A stretch of 64,000 nucleotides of DNA, taken from NCBI GenBank assembly GCA_020848615.1, contig JADLHW010000086.1, forward strand, positions 1 through 64,000. The letters are read 5' to 3'. The DNA is from Thermoleophilia bacterium (GTDB lineage Bacteria; Actinomycetota; Thermoleophilia; Miltoncostaeales; Miltoncostaeaceae). The stretch's first letter is position 1, and the number at the start of each line of letters is the position of its first letter. The position numbers and the translations under genes are program-made. Below are positions 37,332 to 40,221 of this stretch, in pieces. The notes beneath the pieces were generated by a model. It did not search any database. It saw only the letters and a list, made by a program, of their open reading frames with translations, and was not told the DNA's origin.

Positions 37332-40106
37332 CTACCGCACGGGGACCGCGGTCACCACGACGTTGTCGCGGTAGTGCCCGGTCTGGGTGTTGAACGGCCC
37401 GCCGCAGGTCACCAGCACCAGCCGGGCAGCGCCCCGCGTGGAGTAGATGGCCGCCGGCAGATCCGTCTTCTCGTACGTCTTCACCGTGGTGACGCGGTAC
37501 GTCCGGGTCTTCCCGTCCGCGGTGGTCACCTGCACGCGGCTGCGCGCCGTCGCCCGCTTGAGCGGCCCGAAGGCGCCCACGCCGGCCCTGGCGGAGTCCA
37601 CGTGCCCGGCGATGAGCACCGCGCCGGTGCTGTCACCGGGAGCCGCGCCGTCACGGAACCAGCCGGTGCGCCTGATGTTCGTGGGAACGTCCAGGGCACC
37701 CGTCGCCAGGTCGATGCCGACGCCCTGCACCGGGGCGTCCACCCCGAGGTCGGCGATCCTCACCCGCGTGGGGGCGGAACGGCCGGACTGCAGCCCGCGG
37801 GCGGGCGCCCGCGCCGTGTCGCCCCGGCCGGTGAGGATGAGCGGCCGCGCGAGGGCCGTCTCGCTCACCTCGCCGCACGCGCCCTCGGTGCTCTTCACCA
37901 GGCCCGTCCCGACGAGCTTCTCACGGTAGGTGTAGAAGCCCGCCTTGGCGATGGTGACCGCCGGCGACCGGGTCTCCCCGTCGCCCTTCACCGTGAAGCT
38001 CCCCTTCCAGAACGGGGTGACGTCGCAGCGGATCGCGGCCTTCGTGGCGAACGGCCCGAACAGCTCGAGCTGCACCGTCGCCTCGGAGTCGCCCAGGCCC
38101 TTCACGCGGACCCGGTCGAAGATCTGCTGGCCGGGCTTCACCACGTCGGAGGACGCGATGGTCGTGACCTCCGGCTCGGCGGAGACCAGCGCGGTCTCGC
38201 TCGCCTCACCGCACGGAGTCGTCACGCCGGAGTTCGCCTCCGACTCGGCGATCGACGCACGGTAGGTGTAGTAGCCCACGTTGTTGAGCCGCACCTTGCC
38301 GGTGGCGTGGACGCCGTCGCCGATCTCGGCGTCGATCGTGCCGGTCCACGCCGGCGTGCCGGAGCAGTTGATCGCCTCGCGGGTGGGGTACGGACCCCAC
38401 AGCTCCATGTTGATGGTGGTGGACAGCGCGCCCATGCCGCTCACGATCACCCGGTCCGACAGCTGCTGGCCGGGCTTGAGCTGCAGAGCGCTCACCTGGC
38501 TGGTGATGCGCGGGGCGCCGGTCACGATCACGCCCTCGCTGGTCTCACCGCACTTGCCCTCGAAGCCGCGCACGAAGCCGTTCGCCTCGAGCCGCTCGCG
38601 GTACGTGTAGTAGCCGCCCACGGTGGGGGTGAACTGCTCGGTCACGTACTCGCCGTCGCCGGTGGCGGTGACCCCGCCGGTCCAGATGGGCGCGCCGTCG
38701 CAGTTCACGGCGGCCGCGGTGCTGAACGGCCCGTACAGGGAGATCGAGACCGGGGAGGTCTCGCCGTTCAGGCCCGTCACGACGGCCGTGTCGGAGATGG
38801 GCTGGCCCACCGGGGTGCGGGCCGTGCTGGCCTGGGTGCGCACCGCCGGCTGGGTCTCCACGCGGATCGTCTCGGCGGGCACGCCGCACGGGGTGGTGAC
38901 GCCGGTGAAGTCCTCGTCGCCCGCGATGATGATGCGGTACGTGTAGATGCCGGGCTTCGTGGGCCGGATGACCCCGGTCTGGTAGGTCCCGGACTTGGTG
39001 ACCTCGATGTCGGCCGTCGCGGCGGGCGCCGCGGTGCAGGCGATGTCCGCCTCGCGGCGGAACGGCCCGTGCAACTCCACCTTCACGGCGGTCTTCCGTC
39101 CGCCGGGCAGGCCCGTGATGGTGATGCGGTCACGGGTGGCGCCGCCCACCAGCAGCTTCGCGGGGCGCGCCTGGGTGGTCACCGTCGCGCGGGTGCGCGC
39201 CACGGTGCCGGTCGCGGTGGCCGCCACGGTCTGGGAGGCGGCGGTCGCGAGGCGCTGCCCGTTGCGGGCGGCGGCGGCCGTCGTGGGACGGAACACCCGC
39301 GGCAGCGTGGAGGCGATGGGCGCGCTCCGCGCCGTGAGGGAGATGTCGCCGGCGCCGTCCGGCGTGAAGGTGACGGTGGCGACGCCGGTGCTGCCGGTGC
39401 TCACCCGGGCGGGGAGGTCCGACGCGCCCTTGGAGGTGAGCGTGAGCGCGACGCCCGGCACGGGCGCGCCGGTGGCGGACAGGACCCGGATGGTCGCCTT
39501 GGCGTCGGACCCCACGCGCAGCCCGCCGGCGAACGCCGCCCGCACCCGGTATGGGCCGCGGTAGCGGTCGGCGTCGGCGCTGATCCTGCGGTAGATGGAG
39601 GCGACGGTCGCGCCGATGGCGTCTGGTGCGGCCTCGCCGGGGGCGCCGTCGCCCATGAGGCCGTGCACGTAGAGCATCACGGCGGCCTGCTGGTTGGCGT
39701 TGCTGCTGCGCCCGTGGTTCCACAGGGCGTACGCCATCCGCGACAGCTCGGCGTTGGAGATGGTCCGCCCGGCCTTGTTCTTCAGGCCGGTGACGTCGTC
39801 GATCTCCGTGAAGGCGTAGCGCTTGGCCGGGTACCAGAAGCGCAGGTCGATGCAGAAGGCCGGCGGGATGCCGTCGATGGCCCCCCGGTAGTCGCCGAAC
39901 CAGCGGATGCCGTACTTGTAGCGCTGGTAGCTGCCCACTCCCGTGGTGCCGCAGGTGTCGCGGCCGACGGAGGAACAGGGGTCGTTCTGATTCGGAGGCT
40001 CGGCCGCCGGTGCGTCCGCGGCGGTCATCAGCATGCCGGCCGCGACGGCCAGCCCTGCGATGACGCCCCAGGTGCGCCGGGACCGGCACGGGGGTGCGAG
40101 GTCCAT
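37332..40106 (-). CDS. Secreted fusion: thioester-like domain, four repeats and class F sortase
   Basis: 924 residues from the ATG at 40106, with AGGAGG upstream. Residues 1-35 are a signal peptide. Residues about 45-190 resemble the thioester (TQXA) adhesion domain: PPAFCIDLRF with Cys85 and NQQAAVMLYV with Gln139/Gln140, the two residues whose side chains would form an internal thioester. Residues 190-265 look like one Ig-like strand-rich module. Four repeats of about 112 residues follow (about 317-428, 429-540, 541-652, 653-755), each with E-L-x-G-P[FY], YTYR and a conserved cysteine pair. Residues 775-924 are a class F sortase: His835 (IAGHVDS), Cys901 (LVLVTCGG) and Arg913 (HYRDNVVV). 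There is no LPxTG signal or C-terminal membrane anchor. Such a fusion would let a surface adhesin carry its own transpeptidase; the activity is inferred from residues only. Confidence 0.85.
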   Translation of the reverse strand: MDLAPPCRSRRTWGVIAGLAVAAGMLMTAADAPAAEPPNQNDPCSSVGRDTCGTTGVGSYQRYKYGIRWFGDYRGAIDGIPPAFCIDLRFWYPAKRYAFTEIDDVTGLKNKAGRTISNAELSRMAYALWNHGRSSNANQQAAVMLYVHGLMGDGAPGEAAPDAIGATVASIYRRISADADRYRGPYRVRAAFAGGLRVGSDAKATIRVLSATGAPVPGVALTLTSKGASDLPARVSTGSTGVATVTFTPDGAGDISLTARSAPIASTLPRVFRPTTAAAARNGQRLATAASQTVAATATGTVARTRATVTTQARPAKLLVGGATRDRITITGLPGGRKTAVKVELHGPFRREADIACTAAPAATADIEVTKSGTYQTGVIRPTKPGIYTYRIIIAGDEDFTGVTTPCGVPAETIRVETQPAVRTQASTARTPVGQPISDTAVVTGLNGETSPVSISLYGPFSTAAAVNCDGAPIWTGGVTATGDGEYVTEQFTPTVGGYYTYRERLEANGFVRGFEGKCGETSEGVIVTGAPRITSQVSALQLKPGQQLSDRVIVSGMGALSTTINMELWGPYPTREAINCSGTPAWTGTIDAEIGDGVHATGKVRLNNVGYYTYRASIAESEANSGVTTPCGEASETALVSAEPEVTTIASSDVVKPGQQIFDRVRVKGLGDSEATVQLELFGPFATKAAIRCDVTPFWKGSFTVKGDGETRSPAVTIAKAGFYTYREKLVGTGLVKSTEGACGEVSETALARPLILTGRGDTARAPARGLQSGRSAPTRVRIADLGVDAPVQGVGIDLATGALDVPTNIRRTGWFRDGAAPGDSTGAVLIAGHVDSARAGVGAFGPLKRATARSRVQVTTADGKTRTYRVTTVKTYEKTDLPAAIYSTRGAARLVLVTCGGPFNTQTGHYRDNVVVTAVPVR
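37842..39158 (-). repeat. Four tandem 112-residue repeats inside the sortase fusion
   Basis: The repeat unit begins near a P-G-Q-Q/P-V-G-Q motif, carries V-E-L-x-G-P-F, a Cys within I-x-C-x-x-x-P, W-x-G, G-[YF]-Y-T-Y-R, and ends in C-G-E-x-S-E-T. Units 2, 3 and 4 start at residues 429, 541 and 653, exactly 112 residues apart. Each has two cysteines. Unit 1 is the most diverged (lacking W-x-G). Confidence 0.8.
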
Positions 40107-40221
40107 GCGCGCGACCCTACCTCCTGGGAACCCCCGATCGCTACGGAGCGTCCGCCCCTCATGGGGGGACTCCCGGTGCCGATCTCGAACATGACCGCAC
40201 GGCGGACGAGGGTGAGGGCGG

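Follow-up and report, generated by a model that had tools for sequence, protein, structure and literature searches.

Sortases usually figure as the enzymes and thioester adhesins as their substrates; the gene described here belongs to a conserved family in which a single secreted chain holds both, which raises the question of what such a chain might do. The gene lies on the minus strand of the window (the whole stretch of 64,000 nucleotides that was analysed) at 37332..40106, and all features given below are on the same strand. Its open reading frame starts with ATG and encodes 924 aa, the coordinates including the stop codon; an AGGAGG at 40120..40125, read directly 13 nt 5' of the ATG, is the likely ribosome binding site. 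From the N to the C terminus, the protein consists of a signal peptide and a region resembling thioester domains (TEDs), followed by four repeats, each containing one Cys pair, and by a class F-like sortase. The signal peptide (residues 1-35; 40002..40106) ends in an AxA site before EPPN, and an AxA-type site before [EVT]PP[ND] is kept in the homologues with an intact 5' end, which bears out the signal peptide that an earlier note on this DNA had claimed. The C terminus reads VVVTAVPVR, and inspection of the 924-aa sequence revealed neither an LPXTG signal nor a C-terminal transmembrane segment, again as had been claimed. The protein thus has a cleavable-type signal peptide some 750 residues away from its sortase and is without a transmembrane segment.

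A search for the same combination in other genomes, which the earlier note had proposed, found the N-terminal domain of the fusion in 24 of the 399 genomes sampled in the class. On every intact contig, one, three or four repeats and then the sortase come after this domain, and full-length homologues occur in the same genus, in the same family and in other families of the class; since the full architecture recurs across several families, it is not a product of chance. The closest named relative, from the MAG Actinobacteria bacterium Ga0077560, is 83% identical, and the distances between the TED-like regions and between the sortases of 21 members are correlated (Spearman 0.57; the pairs are not independent). 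Some members are split or ended by contig edges (G007, G040, G327). The gene is spread over two contigs in the draft genomes G007 (C18/C99) and G040 (C70/C89), and these splits are probably assembly breaks. In the window, the neighbours of the fusion gene are an aminotransferase class IV gene and a pyridine nucleotide oxidoreductase gene; outside one genus no conserved neighbours were found, and no relatives of the fusion were found on viral contigs. The fusion is the sole PF04203 match in the source genome (96% complete), in which no PF00746 anchor protein was detected. The same holds for the nine other fusion-bearing members of the bacterial family, except that G007 has one PF00746 match. 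The fusion gene stands alone in its genome in these respects, and among the papers searched none combined 'class F sortase' and 'thioester domain'.

The N-terminal region (residues 36-305; 39192..40001) was recognised as class II thioester-domain-like by motif and profile comparison. The predicted thioester Cys, Cys85 (39852..39854), lies in an FCID segment that agrees with the class II [YFL]C-hydrophobic-hydrophilic motif, and is invariant in 24/24 class homologues as well as in four Streptomyces-like relatives. The earlier note had singled out this Cys, and had paired it with Gln139 or Gln140 (39687..39692), two residues of a QQAAVM helix motif that resembles TQxA. Gln139 is kept in 17/24 homologues and Gln140 in 20/24, and one homologue (L009) has neither residue while retaining Cys85. 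A single homologue without both compares with about 1.2 expected if the two were lost independently, so there is no sign that one compensates for the other. In published thioester domains, the TQxA-type Gln belongs to a central helix, where it makes a hydrogen bond to the backbone of the Cys, and the thioester can form without it. The Gln that does form the bond is found in a later strand, which in class II domains comes after an inserted beta-sandwich (PMC4450167, PMC6194298). Conservation and the published chemistry together speak against Gln139/140 as the bond-forming residues, and a Cys85–Gln139/140 thioester is scarcely credible; the earlier note was probably right about the kind of chemistry and named the wrong Gln. 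The class II version of the helical motif, TQxxPhiW, is itself not universal and has been published as dispensable; QQAAVM lacks its T and W, and its Gln is variable.

The arrangement expected of a class II domain is found further downstream. An Ig-like beta-sandwich (Big_1/filamin-like; residues 195-261; 39324..39524) is inserted into the region, as recognised with Pfam, the filamin model matching above its cut-off and Big_1 below its cut-off (E 6e-7). Directly after this insert comes Gln284 (NGQRLA; 39255..39257), the predicted thioester-forming Gln, which is invariant as QR[LMV] in 23/23 homologues, is preceded mostly by Gly rather than by a hydrophobic residue, and corresponds to the late conserved Gln of class II domains, which stands in a weak hydrophobic-Q-polar-hydrophobic-hydrophobic motif. 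Across the homologues Cys85 and Gln284 are 195-200 residues apart, and the equivalent spacing in crystallised class II TEDs is 171-204 (PMC6194298). Gln284 aligns with the QRL of pLS20-type class II TEDs. The published class II TED of plasmid pLS20 depends on Cys68, for which Gln256 has been modelled as the partner (PMC8092201); the pLS20 TIE protein carries YCIDP and YQRLM 188 residues apart, with the same QRL motif. The Streptomyces-like relatives have AQRMLL 205-206 residues past their Cys, and a further relative, in G744, has AQRVIL 210 residues past its Cys.

Profile comparison places the family alongside class II domains with a low absolute probability. With hhalign, the alignment of the fusion family to eight Bacillota class II TEDs scored 28.0 over 178 columns, with the Cys and the Gln of the two profiles each in register; the 150 column-shuffled controls averaged 13.8 (s.d. 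2.9, maximum 26.4) and produced no alignment as long as 178 columns, and the reversed alignment scored 14.2. The absolute hhalign probability was only 8%, the comparison with class I Streptomyces TEDs returned a short helix match only and that with the single pLS20 sequence the Cys motif only. The Pfam TED and TED_2 models and the NCBIfam TED models did not match the N-terminal region, and PDB sequence searches with it returned no TED. An AlphaFold2 model of the N-terminal domain, built from a two-sequence alignment and covering part of residues 36-305, predicts three helices in the expected order at low confidence (pLDDT 36). Given the 8% probability and the lack of a Pfam TED match, the assignment of Gln284 draws jointly on the identity of the motifs, their order and spacing, and the outcome of the shuffles, and these make Gln284 the likely partner of Cys85.

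The number of cysteines points in the same direction. A mature four-repeat protein has 12, a three-repeat protein 10 and a one-repeat protein 6, i.e. 4+2n for n repeats; Cys85, Cys901 of the sortase, a pair at 44/52 and a further pair in each repeat account for all of them. As the counts fit 4+2n exactly, Cys85 would be the sole unpaired non-catalytic Cys if the others form the predicted disulfides, and this is consistent with the requirement for a thioester. A rival reading takes the protein for a class F sortase with a housekeeping role, whose long N-terminal extension is exposed at the surface and retains a TED-like part as a structural relic that forms no thioester. In its favour, the genome has no other sortase, TED models do not match the N-terminal region and standalone class F-like sortases are present in the same class. 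Against it, Cys85 and Gln284 are invariant in several families although identity over the remainder of the region drops to 45-50%, the protein lacks an N-terminal transmembrane segment, and the genome offers a housekeeping enzyme no PF00746 substrate, so that we consider this explanation distinctly unlikely.

Between residues 306 and 755, the protein carries four repeats with one invariant Cys pair each: repeat 1 (Cys357-Cys407; 38853..39191), repeat 2 (Cys469-Cys519; 38517..38855), repeat 3 (Cys581-Cys632; 38181..38519) and repeat 4 (Cys694-Cys744; 37842..38183). The four repeats and their Cys pairs are as previously described, but the spacing, said to be exactly 112 residues, is 112/112/113 between the first and 112/113/112 between the second cysteines. 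An AlphaFold2 model of one repeat (repeat 2), built from an alignment of eight repeats of the window protein and of its homologue L019, is a confident beta-sandwich (pLDDT 89.6). Its best PDB match is 8f9l, an ester-bond stalk domain of a Gemella adhesin (TM 0.64, rmsd 5.2, 18% identity), and the further matches are other beta-sandwiches. No Pfam isopeptide-domain match was found in the fusion protein. The modelled fold and the predicted Cys pairing fit a stalk in which disulfides take the place of isopeptide or ester bonds.

The C-terminal domain (residues 783-923; 37338..37760) matches PF04203 above the cut-off (E 1e-18). NF033748, the NCBIfam model for class F, is the best class model (E 2e-35), at 122 bits and thus below its cut-off of 166, and we refer to the domain as class F-like. 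The catalytic His835 (GHVD; 37602..37604) and the catalytic Cys901 (VTCGG; 37404..37406) are present in every homologue with an intact sortase, and the whole TCGG motif around Cys901 is conserved. The third residue of the triad named in the earlier note, Arg913 (Arg913-Asp914-Asn915; 37362..37370), proved less constant, being Arg in 19/23 homologues and V, K, L or E in 4/23. The column that holds the catalytic Arg in classes A and E is occupied by the invariant Asn915 in these class F-like sortases, with the variable Arg two residues earlier. Since an Arg is essential in tested sortases (PMC13257024) and Arg913 is variable, sortase activity of the fusion is likely but not secure.

The same variability could mean that the domain is a pseudo-sortase, a sortase fold that has given up transpeptidation and binds a wall or protein ligand, holding the adhesin at the surface. 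Such an anchor would tolerate the loss of an essential Arg and the Asn in its canonical column, and would suit a genome with no detected LPXTG substrate protein. A pure binding domain, however, would need no invariant active-site Cys, and here His835, Cys901 and the entire TCGG motif are invariant; moreover, this Arg is also absent from L013, a class F-like sortase from the same class that stands alone. We therefore regard loss of catalysis as unlikely. Compared with the class F sortases of C. acnes (SrtF) and A. missouriensis (SrtF1-4), the domain shares the sortase fold, the GHVD His, the TCGG Cys and the DN[VI]VV strand. Class F enzymes are typically standalone and have an N-terminal membrane anchor, and those of A. 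missouriensis are small (184-273 aa; PMC13251363), whereas here the sortase makes up the last sixth of a secreted protein of 924 aa that has no transmembrane segment, and its score falls below the NCBIfam cut-off.

We propose, with a probability of roughly 0.55, that the protein is a secreted TIE-type fibrillar adhesin with a class II Cys85–Gln284 thioester tip, in which a sortase domain has taken the place of the C-terminal wall-sorting signal. Cys85 and Gln284 would form the internal thioester, through which the tip could attach covalently to an amine of a target surface. The stalk would consist of one to four Ig-like domains with a single disulfide lock in each, and the class F-like sortase at the far end would act on the cell side, where it would either serve as a binding anchor or, as an enzyme, attach the adhesin or partners of it to the envelope. 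An exchange of the anchor signal of an adhesin for a sortase domain is the simplest reading of the relatives. The Streptomyces-like TED/CnaB proteins (L128-L130) and the G744 protein (L164) share the N-terminal region, the Cys, the Big_1-like insert and the QR Gln with the fusion family, but end in sortase substrate signals, LAHTG and LARTG respectively, whereas the fusion family ends in a sortase; the sortase thus occupies the position of the anchor. Known class II TED adhesins (BaTIE, SaTIE, EfmTIE86 and pLS20 TIE) have in common with the fusion the aromatic-Cys-hydrophobic-Asp motif, the helix motif, the Ig-like insert, a late QRL-type Gln at a similar distance, a signal peptide and an Ig-like stalk. 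They differ in that the fusion ends in a sortase and not in LPXTG (pLS20 TIE has neither), has a putative disulfide stalk in place of one with isopeptide or ester bonds, and is without a Pfam TED or TED_2 match. Against this proposal stand the failure of TED models to detect the region, the hhalign probability of 8% and the absence of Arg913 in 4/23 homologues; in addition, cleavage of the signal peptide would leave no membrane anchor to retain the protein at the cell. On balance, the analysis supports the architecture put forward in the earlier note, in which an adhesion domain of the thioester type, a stalk with disulfides and a sortase share a single secreted chain.

The bacterial family also encodes other secreted proteins of related appearance. 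The source genome has a protein combining a TED-like region with DUF11 (L161:2171-3514, G000:C162) and carrying the motifs WCVM, IQVAVW and AQNLSW, and similar multi-copy secreted proteins (L161, L162, L163, L166-L195) occur in the family in several copies per genome, with Cys, IQVAVW-type helix and late Gln motifs and no Pfam TED match. A large number of the family's secreted proteins have xPAVTG or a close variant, xP[ASGN]V[TA]G, as their exact C terminus, with neither a transmembrane segment nor a charged tail (L204-L232; L233:18217-19563; L234:4019-10453, with four consecutive in L234), and this ending looks like an undescribed C-terminal signal. In 61 genomes, the strict xPAVTG DNA pattern had 42 matches, a few of them in frames unlike genes, vs 6 for the reversed pattern. 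The ending was found in 8/10 genomes of the family with the fusion vs 6/27 without it (Fisher p ~0.005, computed with 26 instead of 27 and uncorrected for kinship). TED-DUF11 proteins and the xPAVTG end are present in G012 and G025 as well, two nearly or fully complete genomes with no PF04203 sortase; xPAVTG is thus not a proven sorting signal, and a role of TED-DUF11 proteins as obligate sortase substrates is not supported. One could imagine the fusion as a soluble two-ended covalent crosslinker, whose thioester bonds one surface while its sortase activates the anchorless secreted xPAVTG-ending DUF11 and TED-like proteins and links them either to one another or to the envelope, a form of sorting with neither a membrane-anchored enzyme nor membrane-anchored substrates; we hold this to be a decidedly improbable scheme.

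If the fusion is an adhesin as we propose, the question becomes whether its sortase serves as the anchor of the adhesin or acts on non-canonical substrates, in genomes that encode no other sortase and almost no LPXTG protein. The conserved motifs would carry the range of class II thioester domains into an actinobacterial group in which the Pfam TED models miss them, and they offer a precise bond, Cys85–Gln284, for testing.
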